From contig NZ_GL872283.1 of the NCBI RefSeq assembly GCF_000191065.1, positions 1,177,721 through 1,241,720 on the forward strand: 64,000 nucleotides of DNA, read 5' to 3'. Of this stretch, positions 2,603 to 57,698 are shown piece by piece. A program made the translations under genes and the position numbers. The stretch's first letter is position 1, and every line of letters starts with the position of its first letter. The stretch comes from Prevotella multiformis DSM 16608 (GTDB taxonomy: Bacteria; Bacteroidota; Bacteroidia; Bacteroidales; Bacteroidaceae). Below the pieces are notes generated by a model. The model ran no database searches and had not been told where the DNA came from. It was given only the letters and a program-made list of their open reading frames with translations.

Positions 2603-2682
2603 CACGTTTTATCACATAATCCGAAACGATTTGTCTTAAATTCTCACAAACATTTCAGAACTTGTACTTAACCTTCCGTAAC

Positions 2683-2752
2683 TTTCCGCCAAAGAAAAAG
2701 CATTTTATCCCTCCGACCGGCTTATAGTTCGGGATTTTTGTCTAATTTTGTA
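2683..2752 (+). promoter_or_regulatory. Conserved ~70-bp promoter element, copy A (folK)
   Basis: The order is CCAAAGAAAAAGCATTTT, then GGCTTATAG, then the -7 box TAATTTTG (2743-2750). The GC of AAGC is 43 bp and the C of CTTATA 22 bp upstream of the -7 box. The same distances are found in copies B, C and D at 24.4, 39.0 and 52.4 kb. Confidence 0.7.
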
Positions 2753-2756
2753 TCAT

Positions 2757-3083
2757 ATGAAGATGATCATTGCTCTTGGTTCCAATCTCCATCAGGAACA
2801 GAATCTACTCAAAGCAAAGGAACTGCTGGGACACAGCTTTGACGGCATTACATTCTCTGAACCGGAATGGACAGAACCGATCGGAATAAAGTCGGACAGA
2901 TTCCTGAACTGCATAGGGACTTTCGAGGCAGAACTGTCACGCACAGCAGTAGAGAAAATACTGAAGCGGACAGAGCAGGTCATGGGCGACTCGCACCAGA
3001 ACCACCAGCTGGGGAAAGTGCTGATAGACATCGACCTCATACAGTATGGCAATGAGACGATAAGGAAAATCGCATGGCTCTGA
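2757..3083 (+). CDS. folK: Short HPPK-like 6-hydroxymethyl-dihydropterin pyrophosphokinase
   Basis: HPPK transfers pyrophosphate from ATP to 6-hydroxymethyl-7,8-dihydropterin in folate synthesis. The N-terminal ALGSN, the central RFLN and the metal-binding pair in LIDIDLIQYG (two Asp) are present. The chain is only about 108 residues against a usual length near 160, and it ends just after the Asp pair, so the C-terminal third is missing. The -7 box ends at 2750, so transcription should start near 2757, at or just before the first in-frame ATG (2757; a second ATG is at 2763). The mRNA is therefore nearly leaderless. Its last 10 bp overlap the next gene, which suggests translational coupling. 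Confidence 0.75.
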   Translation: MKMIIALGSNLHQEQNLLKAKELLGHSFDGITFSEPEWTEPIGIKSDRFLNCIGTFEAELSRTAVEKILKRTEQVMGDSHQNHQLGKVLIDIDLIQYGNETIRKIAWL

Positions 3084-23439: not shown

Positions 23440-24384
23440 AATAAGAATGTTTTAATTGGTATATTAATTTAAATGAACATAAACGAAGAATACTATAGAA
23501 CCCGATAAACTACGGCAACGCATCCAATAAGGTGAATCATGTCGACCTCATAAGGCCTGTCTCCTCAAAACACTTCTAAATGCTTTTTCTTCTCAGATGA
23601 GCGACTCCATCTTCATGAAAGAACAGGGAGTAAAATACGGCTGAAAGAGCAAACGCAGCCTCCATATAAGGACATATTCTAAAAATTCCACATCGGTCCG
23701 TCGCTGACGGGGATATTGTCAACTCCTTGTGTCTTCGCTTTTATGCGCATCTTCAGCTCTTTCTTTCAGCCGGGAGTGCATCACATCCCCATTGCAGGAA
23801 CCGTCCCTCCCTTCCAGGAAGAAAGCAGAATCTGCTCCCTTAAAAAGCGAACATCCATCAAAGATTATTTTTAGAACCAGCCTGAAGGGAAAAGTTCTCA
23901 GATTAATAAAATCTCACACTGCAGATATGCCACCATCGACTTTTGGGCATATTTCTGTAAGGGCGAAGATGAGAAAGGAGGATACTAGAAAAGAAACCGC
24001 CTAAAGAACAGCACAGAATCACCGTCCATCTGAAAGGACAGGCGACAACCCTTCCTCCCTGCAGGATAAGGTCTTACTGCAAGTTTGGCAAACTATTAGA
24101 GGATTTTCCGCCTTAGAACGAACAACGACGGCCAACCATTCGAGGTCCTGTCATGAATCTGTCAGTTGGTTTTACGGACAGACCGATAAATCCGCTCGCA
24201 GAATATTATCTCGGTTCTATAGTTTTGTTTTTTTATGTGGCTACAAAGTTAAACAAAATCTTTGATAACGAAAATGATTTAATCGGATATTTTAACTCCG
24301 CCAATGCAAAAACAGCGTAAGTGAAAGCATAGAAGCCCTCGAAAGAAAAAGTAAATGTTGTAAAGAATTGGAGAAAATCGTAAT
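23440..24384. other. Gene-free region
   Basis: No supported gene lies in this stretch. It holds a diverged intergenic repeat at about 23790-23905 and otherwise no clear structure. Confidence 0.6.
23790..23905 (-). repeat. Diverged intergenic repeat, copy 1
   Basis: On the minus strand GGTTCTAAAAATAATC is followed by TTTGATGGAT, GATTCTGCTTTCTTCCTGG and further on CGGCTGAAAG. The plus strand at 28865-28960 gives the same blocks in the same order. Confidence 0.6.
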
Positions 24385-24455
24385 CTTCCTTCCAAAGAAA
24401 AAGCATTTTCTTTACCAGACAGGCTTATAGTTCGTGGATTTTATCTAAATTTGCA
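24385..24455 (+). promoter_or_regulatory. Conserved ~70-bp promoter element, copy B (outer-membrane protein)
   Basis: CCAAAGAAAAAGCATTTTC, GGCTTATAG and the -7 box TAAATTTG (24446-24453) have the same 43-bp and 22-bp distances as the other copies. The start codon lies 22 bp after the -7 box. Confidence 0.75.
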
Positions 24456-24475: not shown

Positions 24476-25225
24476 ATGAAAAGAACTATATTGACTGTCG
24501 TCATCTTTCTGGGCGTACTAACGAGTTCTCAAGGGCAGATATTCAACAAGAGCAACACAAAGCGCATCGGACAAAACATAAAGGAAAGCTTTCAGAACAT
24601 CAAGAAAACTCTTGTGCAAGACACCCGACCGTCGGGAGAGCACACAATATGGGACATCTATATCGCTCCTAAAATAGGATTGGATCTGTCCAATCTGCCT
24701 GGCATCGACGGGAACGTCAAGTTAGGCGTTGTGGGTGCGGCCTACGTAGAAGTATTTGTTGCAAAGAACATTGCCATAGACGCAGAAATGCAGTACAGCC
24801 GCCAGGGCTCGTCCGGTGTCTACCGCAATCTGCATACGACGGATGCCGCAGGAACCCCCACTGTCCGTGAATACGGCCCATACGACTTCAAATTAGACTA
24901 TATCAACACGAATTATCTGGTACGCTGGTATCCATGGGCCGATCTGCCTTGGAGCTTCACAACTGGTCTGCACATGGGTTACATTGTAAGTGCCCATGCG
25001 AAAATGAAACATGGGGCCGATAAAAACATTAAAAGAGATATTCACAGCGGCGACCTCGCCCTCCCGCTTGGCATCAGCTACGAATGGAAGCAATGGCAAC
25101 TGGAAGCACGCTATAATCTCTATTTCCGAAAGCTGGCACGCAGCCATGAAGCCGAAGTGCTGATGCGAAATGCACGCAACAACATGCTTGAAGTGACCCT
25201 GGGCTACAGAATCAAGATGTTCTGA
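24476..25225 (+). CDS. PorT-like outer-membrane beta-barrel protein
   Basis: The 249-residue protein has a signal peptide (about 1-20, ending SQGQ) and then alternating aromatic/hydrophobic strands of the outer-membrane beta-barrel family (PF13568-like), for example DIYIAPKIGLDL, NIAIDAEMQYSRQG and the closing strand LEVTLGYRIKMF, which ends in an aromatic residue as barrel proteins do. An extra charged helix-like stretch at about 25-50 precedes the barrel. The cargo or role is unknown. It is followed after 14 bp by a lipid A deacylase-like gene, so both may adjust the outer membrane together. Confidence 0.75.
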   Translation: MKRTILTVVIFLGVLTSSQGQIFNKSNTKRIGQNIKESFQNIKKTLVQDTRPSGEHTIWDIYIAPKIGLDLSNLPGIDGNVKLGVVGAAYVEVFVAKNIAIDAEMQYSRQGSSGVYRNLHTTDAAGTPTVREYGPYDFKLDYINTNYLVRWYPWADLPWSFTTGLHMGYIVSAHAKMKHGADKNIKRDIHSGDLALPLGISYEWKQWQLEARYNLYFRKLARSHEAEVLMRNARNNMLEVTLGYRIKMF

Positions 25226-38885: not shown

Positions 38886-39025
38886 TTCAAGATGTAGTTC
38901 AATGCTTGAGGTTGACTACCTTCCACCTTACATTCAAACCTGGTCGACGAGGATTCCTGTAGTATGACGATCCGGAAAGTTGACGATAAAAACGGTATTC
39001 AACTTCCGGCTTACGTTTTCATGGA

Positions 39026-39097
39026 CTTTCCTCTAAAGAGAAAAGCAAATTCTTTATCCCGAAGACTTAGAAATCACAGATTTTATGTAAATTTGCA
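39026..39097 (+). promoter_or_regulatory. Conserved ~70-bp promoter element, copy C (mutarotase-like gene)
   Basis: CCTCTAAAGAGAAAAGCAAA, GACTTAGA and the -7 box TAAATTTG (39088-39095) keep the 43-bp and 22-bp spacing. The upstream GTG at 39100 lies before or at the transcription start, so the ATG at 39124 is the start. Confidence 0.75.
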
Positions 39098-39123: not shown

Positions 39124-40074
39124 ATGAAGCATTTACGCACAATCCTGACAGCAGCAATGCTCAGCATTGTTCTCTGTTCATATAGCCAGGAACAGAAACG
39201 GTTCCGGATCGTCAACGGGAATGGCATGGAGGCGGTCATCAGCAACTATGGAGCACGCCTCGTCTCACTGACAGCCTACAACTGGAACGGCAGACTGGAG
39301 CCAGTCGTAAAAGGTCATGCCCATGACAATGATTACCAGAACGACAAGAGCCTGGGCGCCACCCTCGTCTACTTCGGGAAGAACAATGAAGAGACGCTGT
39401 CTGGGAAGACATGGGAAGTGGTCAGCTCGGACAATCAGTCCGTCTGCCTGCGATATGTGACTTCCGAAGGAGAGAACGGACTGGACGGGAAACTGAATGT
39501 GACCGTCACCTATACCCTGTCGGATCAGAATGCACTGGACGTGGACTATCGCATCACGACGACGGCCCGGACACAACTGGAAGTGACAAACGGGATCTGC
39601 TTCAATCTGTCGGGAGACATGCACCGCTCCATCCTCAAGCAGCATCTGTGGATCGACGCTTTCCTGTCCAACGCCTACAACAAGCAAAAGCAGCTGACGG
39701 GAGTACTGCAGCGCATAAGGAACACACCGTTCGACTTTACCAAACCACGTGAGATCGGCGAGCGCATCAGGCGCACGAACAACGGATATGACAATGCCTA
39801 CCAGCTGCGCCATCCTGACAATATGCAGAAGCCGGCCGCCATCCTCTTCGACGCACAGAGCGGCCGCGCCATGACCGTCTATTCAAGCGAACCGACACTC
39901 TGCATCAACACTTACGGCAAGGCAAGCAGCAGCATCTCCCTGCAGCCCCTCCACTCAGGATACAATAGCGGCATGGAAAAGATAAGCCAAGGACTCGAGC
40001 CCGGGCAGGTCTTCCACGGTGCTACGGTGTTCTTCTTCACCACCGATCCTCCATTGCTTATGCGGACAAAATAA
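39124..40074 (+). CDS. Exported aldose-1-epimerase-like protein lacking the catalytic residues
   Basis: The fold is that of GalM: FRIVNGNGMEAVISNYGARLVSL at the start of the domain, NGLDGKLNVTVTYTLSD in the middle and LEPGQVFHGATVFFF at the end. A signal peptide covers about 1-20 (ending SYSQ). Three sites look lost. The NRIAnG...LHGG segment with the first His is deleted. TNHxYFNL is TNGICFNL here. The terminal ETQ is replaced by LQPLHSG. A working mutarotase is therefore unlikely, and a sugar-binding or other role in the envelope is more probable. It has promoter copy C and no partner gene. It is 316 residues long. Confidence 0.8.
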   Translation: MKHLRTILTAAMLSIVLCSYSQEQKRFRIVNGNGMEAVISNYGARLVSLTAYNWNGRLEPVVKGHAHDNDYQNDKSLGATLVYFGKNNEETLSGKTWEVVSSDNQSVCLRYVTSEGENGLDGKLNVTVTYTLSDQNALDVDYRITTTARTQLEVTNGICFNLSGDMHRSILKQHLWIDAFLSNAYNKQKQLTGVLQRIRNTPFDFTKPREIGERIRRTNNGYDNAYQLRHPDNMQKPAAILFDAQSGRAMTVYSSEPTLCINTYGKASSSISLQPLHSGYNSGMEKISQGLEPGQVFHGATVFFFTTDPPLLMRTK

Positions 40075-51615: not shown

Positions 51616-52269
51616 TCACGGCACAGAGCCAAGAACCCGGGGAATACTTTCCCATGAGAAAATTCGCCATGGACTTGTATCTTCCTCCAGCAAAGACTGT
51701 ACGCTCTTCTTCAGGAACCGCCTCCCGATGAAGTTGTTGATGCACTCACCCTCCATGAACAGCTGTCCGAACTGCCGCCACGAATCTGCATGGATACTGA
51801 TGAAGTTGATTTTATCACGGCAGAGGGCTTCGACTTCGTGGAAAGACAGGTATCCTACTTCCACGGCAGAGGTAAGGACATAAAGGTCTATCCCTGCTAA
51901 AAACACGGAGCGTGCGAGATTGTCTTCCTCGTCATGCGCTTCTTCCAATGCGTCTAAGACATTGGAAACACCAGCGGCATCTTCCAATCCGAAATCTCTT
52001 CTGAGCAGCTTCCGCAGGCTCTCAACTTCACCACCTCCCAAGTGTCCGAACTCCATCAAACGCAGCGGGACACCAGAAGTGAGGACGGAACGGAAAGGAC
52101 AGCTTAACGCCAAGGCGAGATTCTCAACCGTCGGACTGCACTGTTCCCTTACTTTCAAAGCCGCTTCATAAGGAGCGTACTCGGCCAGCCTCTCGCTTTC
52201 GAGTTCGGATTTCCCCTCTGCAACACCTTCTTTAAAACTTTCTATGAGTTCTCTGACAAATTTGAACAT
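51616..52269 (-). CDS. DUF1266-family protein
   Basis: The 217-residue cytosolic protein has the C-terminal DUF1266 pattern: ARSVFLAGIDLYVLTSAVEVGYLSFHEVEALCRDKINFISIHADSWRQFGQLFMEGECINNFIGRR, in which a G-(F/Y)-[LI] turn precedes a helix and a W-x2-(F/Y)-x3-F-(L/M)-x-G helix. The role of the family is unknown. The open frame extends upstream to a TTG at 52377, but that codon is inside the -7 box, so the ATG at 52269 (leader about 100 nt) is the better start. It is transcribed from promoter copy D. Confidence 0.7.
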   Translation of the reverse strand: MFKFVRELIESFKEGVAEGKSELESERLAEYAPYEAALKVREQCSPTVENLALALSCPFRSVLTSGVPLRLMEFGHLGGGEVESLRKLLRRDFGLEDAAGVSNVLDALEEAHDEEDNLARSVFLAGIDLYVLTSAVEVGYLSFHEVEALCRDKINFISIHADSWRQFGQLFMEGECINNFIGRRFLKKSVQSLLEEDTSPWRIFSWESIPRVLGSVP

Positions 52270-57508: not shown

Positions 57509-57513
57509 CTCTG

Positions 57514-57586
57514 TGCGCCCTTAGGGACTCGAACCCTAGACCCACTGATTAAGAGTCAGTTGCTCTACCAGCTGAGCTAAGGGCGC
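57514..57586 (-). tRNA. tRNA-Lys (CTT anticodon), copy 2
   Basis: Acceptor GCGCCCT/AGGGCGC, anticodon loop CTCTTAA within CTGA/TCAG and T-arm GGTTCGAGTCC form a full cloverleaf. No CCA is encoded. It is identical over its length to the copy 40 bp upstream. Confidence 0.95.
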
Positions 57587-57625
57587 CTGCCGAACGAAAA
57601 AGGCTGGGTCAAAAGCCTGTCTGTG

Positions 57626-57698
57626 TGCGCCCTTAGGGACTCGAACCCTAGACCCACTGATTAAGAGTCAGTTGCTCTACCAGCTGAGCTAAGGGCGC
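57626..57698 (-). tRNA. tRNA-Lys (CTT anticodon), copy 1
   Basis: It has the same sequence as the copy at 57514-57586 and lies nearer the promoter. The two form one transcript. Confidence 0.95.

Follow-up and report, generated by a model that had tools for sequence, protein, structure and literature searches.

A putative mobile promoter of 72 bp in Prevotella multiformis, probably derived from an IS110/IS1111-type insertion sequence

Insertion sequences (IS) of the IS1111/IS110 type find their target with an RNA (seekRNA or bridge RNA) that comes from their own noncoding region, and they insert in one orientation; the terminal extensions of IS1111 elements normally measure 7 and 3 bp (PMC11187229). 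Short, non-autonomous and multicopy elements of another kind, the miniature inverted-repeat transposable elements (MITEs) such as MITEAba12, carry outward promoters able to drive neighbouring genes (PMC6382973). For Bacteroides thetaiotaomicron, a TAnnTTTG/TTTG promoter and a second motif, PM2 (boxes at -10 and -30, near-palindromic), are described (PMC7366714). We analysed a stretch of 64,000 nucleotides, called the window in the following (C2:1177721-1241720), from the genome of Prevotella multiformis DSM 16608 (G000; a draft of 3,057,407 bases in 25 contigs), in which a putative promoter of about 72 bp is found four times. We consider this unit, with a probability of about 0.82, to be a miniature mobile element that is non-autonomous and goes back to an IS of the IS110/IS1111 type.

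Mobile promoters of prokaryotes, near-identical promoters in front of non-homologous genes, have reportedly been described by Matus-Garcia, Nijveen and van Passel; so far they were proposed mainly from sequence similarity. Correia elements and a MITE of P. gingivalis are said to belong with the promoter-bearing MITEs. The Prevotella unit likewise stands, nearly identical, ahead of non-homologous genes, but unlike in the earlier cases its insertion point, its empty sites and its likely parent element are visible. It is short, non-autonomous and multicopy, with an apparent outward promoter able to drive neighbours, as reported for MITEAba12 (PMC6382973). Unlike promoter-bearing MITEs it shows neither terminal inverted repeats nor a longer target duplication, and it enters the native -7 box in one orientation, so that the promoter would be replaced and not merely be placed near a gene. 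Like PM2 (PMC7366714), it would represent a non-canonical promoter class in the Bacteroidales; unlike PM2, it has a -7 box of the standard form TAnnTTTG, and it corresponds to neither of the two promoter forms of B. thetaiotaomicron. Among the top-ranked literature matches, none dealt with an IS or MITE of Prevotella that targets promoters, in line with an initial annotation of the window, whose author knew of no described element of this form.

The element and its empty sites

We count all positions from the last G of the -7 box (TAnnTTTG), which is set to zero. The initial annotation, made from the letters of the window alone, had described a 70-bp promoter element present at four sites with invariant spacing. 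This spacing was found exactly as described: in 4/4 sites the distance to the T that opens the box is 43 bp from the G of AAGC (at -50) and 22 bp from the C of CTTA (at -29). A scan of the whole genome and of its relatives, which had been proposed as a check, was performed with two models that both recover their own training sites by construction. The sequence-only model R1, built from six sites, gave 33 places in G000 at E<1e-5, while R2, built from 23 sites, gave 36 places at E<=1e-5; of these, 23 are strong (E<=1.2e-15), and the one that follows has 1.3e-11. The repeat is thus real, and the element extends beyond the words that the annotation had named. The conserved block extends from about -69 to +2, roughly 72 bp, with background on both sides (~0.1 bit per column outside), and its left end contains the remnant of a second -7 box. 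The consensus reads CTTTCCTCTAAAGAAAAAGCATTTTCTTTATCCnACnGGCTTATA, followed by the spacer GTTCGGGAATTTTATC or AAATCACAGTTTTTATG (or near forms) and by TAAATTTGCA. The -7 box at the right end is TAnnTTTG in 23/23 strong copies, and CTTATAA instead of TTTG occupies the -33 position, as the annotation had proposed. The centre is palindromic (AAAGAAAA-AGCA-TTTTCTTT).

Such a picture could also be produced by an inherited regulon, in which a dedicated activator (palindrome AAAGAAAA-N4-TTTTCTTT) or an alternative sigma factor (CTTA for the -33 TTTG) serves many genes. The long position-specific conservation, in which some columns vary freely (-32, -35) and others are almost fixed, fits this idea, and so do the two spacer subtypes. 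Over columns -23 to -8 the 23 strong sites split into 9 of the GTTCGGGAATTTTATC type and 14 of the AAATCACAGTTTTTATG type; L059 and L098, whose -7 box is unreadable and which are not among the strong 23, stand outside this analysis. The subtypes are discrete and linked across about ten columns, like pairs are also seen in G029, and they may represent two source lineages.

The genes behind the strong copies point away from a regulon. A same-strand ATG that opens a long frame follows the TTTG within 4-122 nt in 22/23 copies; for the remaining one, L043, such an ATG lies at 279 nt, with a short open reading frame (ORF) closer. Pfam matches downstream include a nucleoside-recognition Gate domain, AICARFT (purH-like), IPP transferase (miaA), asparaginase, an APH-fold kinase, peptidases M16 and C1, a Na/H exchanger, primase (dnaG), uvrB, a ribosome-binding GTPase, GH25, HPPK (folK), aldose epimerase and DNA alkylation repair; 5/23 genes (L037, L039, L041, L053, L054) gave no match above cut-off. 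No common function could be recognised from the Pfam annotation of the 23, and genes such as dnaG, uvrB, miaA, the purH-like gene, folK, asparaginase and the peptidases are functionally unrelated. In four of the 23 copies (L040, L047, L052, L055) the ATG stands only 4-10 nt after the TTTG, and the mRNA should therefore be leaderless or nearly so. In B. thetaiotaomicron only about 3.7% of the 5' leaders are shorter than 10 nt (PMC7366714).

A direct comparison was made with G003, which is by UvrB (93% over 490 aa) the nearest among 35 other genomes compared; the UvrB comparison held 21 of the 35 same-genus genomes (all but G022-G035). G003 yielded no element at 1e-5 with R2 and none at 1e-3 with a model R3. 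Orthologs of 20 downstream genes were sought there with one joined protein query, and of uvrB in addition, covering the strong sites other than L043 and L054; 17/21 were usable (L039, L048, L050 and L058 were not found or too weak). A further genome, G010, was read by eye only. In 14/17 of the G003 upstream regions a native box TANNTTTG lies within 160 nt of the start, and in all 14 it reads TA[TAC]CTTTG. Whole G000 flanks, left or right, ended at most 1 nt from the native G in 12/14 cases compared with 35/224 mismatched gene pairs, and both flanks ended within 3 nt in 5/14 compared with 2/224. The flanks carry box letters, and we therefore repeated the comparison without them. At least one flank then ended at most 1 nt from the native box in 10/14 cases against 10/224, and both within 3 nt in 5/14 (L036, L040, L041, L046, L047) against 0/224. 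Mean alignment scores were 41.6 for the right flanks, which contain some coding DNA, and 36.8 for the left flanks; the mismatched pairs gave 20.4 (maximum 36) and 20.8 (maximum 37).

The clearest case by eye is miaA. Here G003 reads CTGGCAGGGATTTTTTTGTTATCTTTG-TGACATGAATCATGAA, and G000 reads CCGGCAGGGATTTTTCTGTTATCTT, then the element from CCTTCTAAAG to CTAAATTTG, then CGACATGAAGCATGAA; in short form, the empty GGCAGGGATTTTTTTGTTATCTTTG-TGACATG stands against the filled GGCAGGGATTTTTCTGTTATCTT-element-CGACATG, in which the element ends in TAAATTTG. Wherever the empty site of G003 is readable, the alignments place the element inside the native -7 box (TA[TAC]CTTTG), with TANCTTT remaining on the left and a rebuilt TAAATTTG on the right. 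From the empty and filled forms we conclude that the element entered the -7 box and rebuilt a box at its far end, which would explain at once why the spacing is fixed, why the copies have a single orientation, why the genes are unrelated and why the edges are sharp. For an inherited regulon one would expect sites kept before orthologs in close relatives; we found 0 elements in G003 and ordinary boxes at 14/17 genes instead, and the conserved block spans the stretch from the old to the new -7 box and matches IS ends (see below). The sigma factor or activator reading, which had been considered first, was dropped as an inherited regulon on the empty sites; in this form it is largely refuted, and we hold it to be very improbable, though shared regulation may have been gained after the insertions. 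Of the two options left by the initial annotation, a regulon or a mobile promoter cassette, the cassette is supported by the empty sites, the insertion into the -7 box and the transposase-bearing IS with matching ends. The regulon, as something inherited, is not supported, given the ordinary boxes of G003 at most of the genes, the 43/60 genomes without a match at 1e-5 and the lack of a common function. The palindrome fits two fused subterminal repeats; it may in addition be a functional site, i.e. an UP element or an activator site.

The empty sites also bear on the idea that homologous recombination or gene conversion between promoters, with no transposon involved, distributed the promoter. 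A promoter-sized, sharp-edged unit before non-homologous genes is what such a process would leave, as in the reported mobile promoters. In contrast, the sequence grows by about 65 bp at one defined point, the native flank and box are preserved to the left of the unit (miaA, dnaG, folK), and the ends of the unit match an IS, so that we give this explanation hardly any credit.

The two boxes of the filled sites differ in their state. The new box is intact in 23/23 copies and the old one (TAnnTTT) in 5/23; the relic, placed by its best match to TANCTTTCCTCTA, which weights CTTT, has lost the TA in 16/23 and kept CTTT in 16/23. The loss of TA may reflect selection to silence the old box, or may partly be an effect of this placement. 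An intact new box next to a decayed old one is what we would expect if the new promoter does the work, which supports this view but does not prove it.

The four copies of the window and their genes are the following (positions of the window).

2679-2750, plus strand: folK element, with the relic native -7 box TAACTTT at 2679-2685, the body, and the new -7 box TAATTTTG at 2743-2750
2757-3083, plus strand: folK (HPPK domain), ATG at 2757, 6 nt after the TTTG of the first site (L055)
24382-24453, plus strand: element of the beta-barrel gene, with the decayed relic AATCTTC at 24382-24388 and the new -7 box TAAATTTG at 24446-24453
24476-25225, plus strand: outer-membrane beta-barrel-like gene, ATG at 24476; Pfam 26.5 bits, just under the cut-off of 27
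39023-39095, plus strand: element of the aldose 1-epimerase gene, with the decayed relic GGACTTT at 39023-39029 and the new -7 box TAAATTTG at 39088-39095
39124-40074, plus strand: aldose 1-epimerase gene, ATG at 39124, downstream of the third site
52446-52375, minus strand: element of the DUF1266-like gene, with the decayed relic ATCCTTT at 52446-52440 and the new -7 box TATATTTG at 52382-52375
51616-52269, minus strand: DUF1266-like gene, ATG at 52269; sub-threshold Pfam match of 20.5 bits, cut-off 27

The gene assignments of the initial annotation (folK, a barrel protein, a mutarotase-like protein, DUF1266) agree with these matches, those to HPPK and aldose 1-epimerase above and those to beta-barrel and DUF1266 below threshold. 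In G003 the folK ortholog has a native TAACTTTG 6 nt before its ATG and the ortholog of the beta-barrel-like gene a native TATCTTTG; a native TAACTTTG also precedes the aldose 1-epimerase ortholog, although neither G000 flank aligned to it; no ortholog of the DUF1266-like gene was found there, hence this copy has no empty site. Four of 23 strong copies within 64 kb is above the expectation for a uniform spread (P=0.001, uncorrected), in a window that was itself picked for these sites. Four tRNAs were the only known RNA families detected in the window (Rfam, gathering thresholds); two of its tRNA genes, both tRNA-Lys(CTT) with equal score, lie near each other at 57513-57586 and 57625-57698 on the minus strand.

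The candidate parent

A shorter core of the element (see below) led to an IS of about 1.6 kb of the IS110/IS1111 type, with a DEDD transposase, which is multicopy in rumen Prevotella. The left tip of the element (TAnCTTTCCTCTA) and its right end (ACTGGCTTATAA..TTTTATnTAAATTTG) correspond to the outer ends of this IS, and the short element therefore looks like the IS right tip joined to the IS left end with the interior missing. R2, although trained on G000 sites only, finds IS left ends in other genomes with E values from 7e-9 to 9e-6. At 3 of 15 IS-left-end loci (L183, L217, L220) there is an intact transposase of the IS110 type, directed away from the repeat end; transposase remnants are also present in L153. 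Both domains of the superfamily lie above cut-off in the one copy scanned, the tnpA of L217 (PF01548, E 4.6e-18; PF02371, E 3e-21). Between IS copies from three genomes the identity is 79-81%, and their homology sets in with the G of TTTG or 1 nt ahead of it; among the 25 IS matches listed in relatives, 18 start at query base 1, in 8/9 matching genomes.

The right tip of the IS, read inward, is TA[TC]CTTT[CT]CTCTATAAA in 28/28 distinct junctions, one of which is the query itself, and continues with CAAATTGCCCCG in nearly all of them; this set covers loci for part of the IS matches, and repeated junctions were dropped, as were BLAST hits that stop short of query base 85, which biases the set towards junctions with TATC retained. 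In the 23 elements of G000 this tip is recovered 69-73 nt before the final G with a mean of 9.96/13 matches, compared with 6.04 in 414 control windows; 0/2000 shuffled tips reached 9.96, the best giving 9.26.

This IS shares with the RNA-guided IS1111/IS110 elements (PMC11187229) the DEDD transposase with PF01548 and PF02371, a 12-bp subterminal inverted repeat, a target-matching word downstream of tnpA and the insertion in one orientation at a defined target. By eye, CAAATTGCCCCG or a near form stands at both ends, in agreement with the 11-13 bp of subterminal repeats in IS1111, and the noncoding region is long, with about 260 nt from the tnpA stop to the right end (L183, L217). The word TTATCTTTG occurs in 3/3 noncoding regions downstream of tnpA (shuffle P 0.002-0.004 each, in related sequences), where it faces GCAAAUU in the predicted consensus fold of the three sequences; it is the same -7 box word that is seen in G003. 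Unlike in the described elements, the target would be the -7 box of a host core promoter, the left extension looks like a complete outward promoter, and G000 has miniature copies only. As for the short element, it is multicopy, has no transposase gene and shares its ends with an autonomous element, namely the IS in other genomes, with none found in G000. Its two ends are unlike each other (CCTCTA / TAAATTT), and by eye nothing but the box TTT is present on both sides; in the absence of inverted ends and of a longer duplication we call it MITE-like.

One may argue that the IS arrived later and inserted into a 72-bp unit that is an independent miniature element, mobilised in another way. Indeed, IS1111 inserts into QMITE2 in Coxiella (PMC5896051), the usual extensions of 7 and 3 bp would allow the longer common ends to be target instead of IS, and several IS-type left ends have no transposase nearby. 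However, the IS copies within one genome are identical through TTTG in 6/6 (CAJONO) and 3/3 (JAFWQE) cases, with solo copies far more different; in CADBLU and JAEEQB the IS copies vary at one or two bases. The solo elements of G032 differ in sequence from the IS ends of the same genome, and in the noncoding region 9 letters match the -7 box, compared with at most 6 for the element interior. We consider a later arrival of the IS unlikely and favour its role as the parent.

Several related loci were noted on the side. Twelve IS110-type transposase loci in relatives were checked for these ends, and only L249 (G058) shows them. In G058, which belongs to another family of the order, the IS110-type copies L076 and L092 end in the same kind of promoter core GCACGCTTATAAATCGCTATTTTTATCTAAGTTTG, and the arrangement may therefore extend beyond one genus. 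Contigs with a different IS110-type element (L243 in G027, L247 in G029) start with CTCTAAGTTTGC just before the element; this word resembles a -7 box, and further IS110-type members may target promoters. At L060 and L061, two 3'-half-only sites of G000, no recognisable IS110 transposase was present upstream, the long ORFs being judged by eye.

Distribution and points of weight

R2 matches at 1e-5 occur in 17/60 genomes, G000 included, and are unevenly spread: G009 has 17, G029 13, G032 10, G006 8 and G034 6, counts that include IS ends, and many complete genomes have zero. The purH-like gene carries an element in G029 and G000 and none in G003, by parallel insertion at one box or by loss in G003. 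An exact pattern of the full element gave no match among named genomes, from which the window's own genome was possibly left out. A shorter core (ACTGGCTTATAA N9-11 TTTTATNTAAATTTG) gave 76 stretches in named genomes, all titled Prevotella, Prevotellaceae, Bacteroidaceae or Bacteroidales and by name mostly ruminant-gut metagenome-assembled genomes. Of these stretches, 51/76 lie at most 110 nt from a contig end, and core copies within one genome agree completely or almost completely as far as TTTG and are unique beyond; both features mark the terminus of a longer repeat that is multicopy. Just past the IS left end, the DNA is the same in three named records of different assemblies (L187, L226, L228), which may go back to a single shared insertion or to a repeat. 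Head-to-tail pairs of elements were seen in L116 (G032), L059 (G000:C1:739842-739985) and L097 (G000:C2:55705-55793). The two halves of L116 repeat perfectly (2 x 65 bp), and the left end of this pair, TATCTTTCCTCTA, is the IS right tip; such a tandem can arise by slippage or by insertion, and we do not use it as proof.

A number of observations weigh against the derivation from an IS and against its entry into the -7 box. No match to PF01548, PF02371 or the IS DNA was found in G000, a draft of 25 contigs in which a repeat could be missing, and the mobility is therefore deduced from the past. The other 12 of the 15 IS-left-end loci hold transposase fragments (L186, L224, L236), or else none or too little sequence. 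The right-tip match covers 13 bp and is pyrimidine-rich, and the second guide word (GCAAA opposite TTATCTTTG) is not significant alone. With terminal extensions of about 52 and 17-24 bp the IS departs from the 7 and 3 bp of IS1111, and we therefore call it IS1111-like and do not file it as a member. On the side of the empty sites, a native box could not be recognised in 3/17 upstream regions of G003 (L037, L042, L052), neither side of L056 aligns, and several single-flank alignments score no better than mismatched pairs. The search model contains the -7 box and therefore favours copies with an intact new box. Finally, among 76 sites in relatives there are 5 that clearly lie ahead of a gene with a site in G000 as well, as a regulon would predict; under the mobile reading these shared genes require parallel insertion, or older insertions that were lost in G003.

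A proposed mechanism and its meaning

For the mobile element we propose the following course. A guide RNA from the noncoding region of the IS, carrying TTATCTTTG, would have selected the host -7 box as target, with insertion in one orientation; since this target is directional, copies would land promoter-first. The left end of the IS, whose extension of about 52 bp instead of the usual 7 would be the replacement promoter, could supply the whole promoter, and the target gene would therefore stay expressed. Loss of the interior would have fused the two subterminal repeats into the central palindrome AAAGAAAA-AGCA-TTTTCTTT. After insertion the old box would decay and the gene would then depend on the new promoter. 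As G000 yielded no transposase, the copies there are probably fixed relics that act as promoters.

In summary, the 72-bp unit of P. multiformis has ends that match those of an IS110/IS1111-type element, and 22/23 strong copies face a same-strand gene start within 122 nt. More speculative, and somewhat less likely than not, is a wider reading, in which an RNA-guided IS is programmed to the -7 box of host core promoters and pays with a complete substitute promoter, while its miniatures have put more than 20 unrelated genes under one promoter type and thereby built a regulon from a transposon. If true, a promoter-targeting transposon that restores transcription would explain how insertion upstream of essential genes does not kill the cell, and it would offer a natural system for asking whether many genes can re-wire to one promoter in a short evolutionary time. 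The insertion point, the empty sites and the likely parent are visible together, and the process is thereby open to testing. The finding also suggests that a consensus element of the host can serve RNA-guided elements of the IS110 type as a target throughout the genome.
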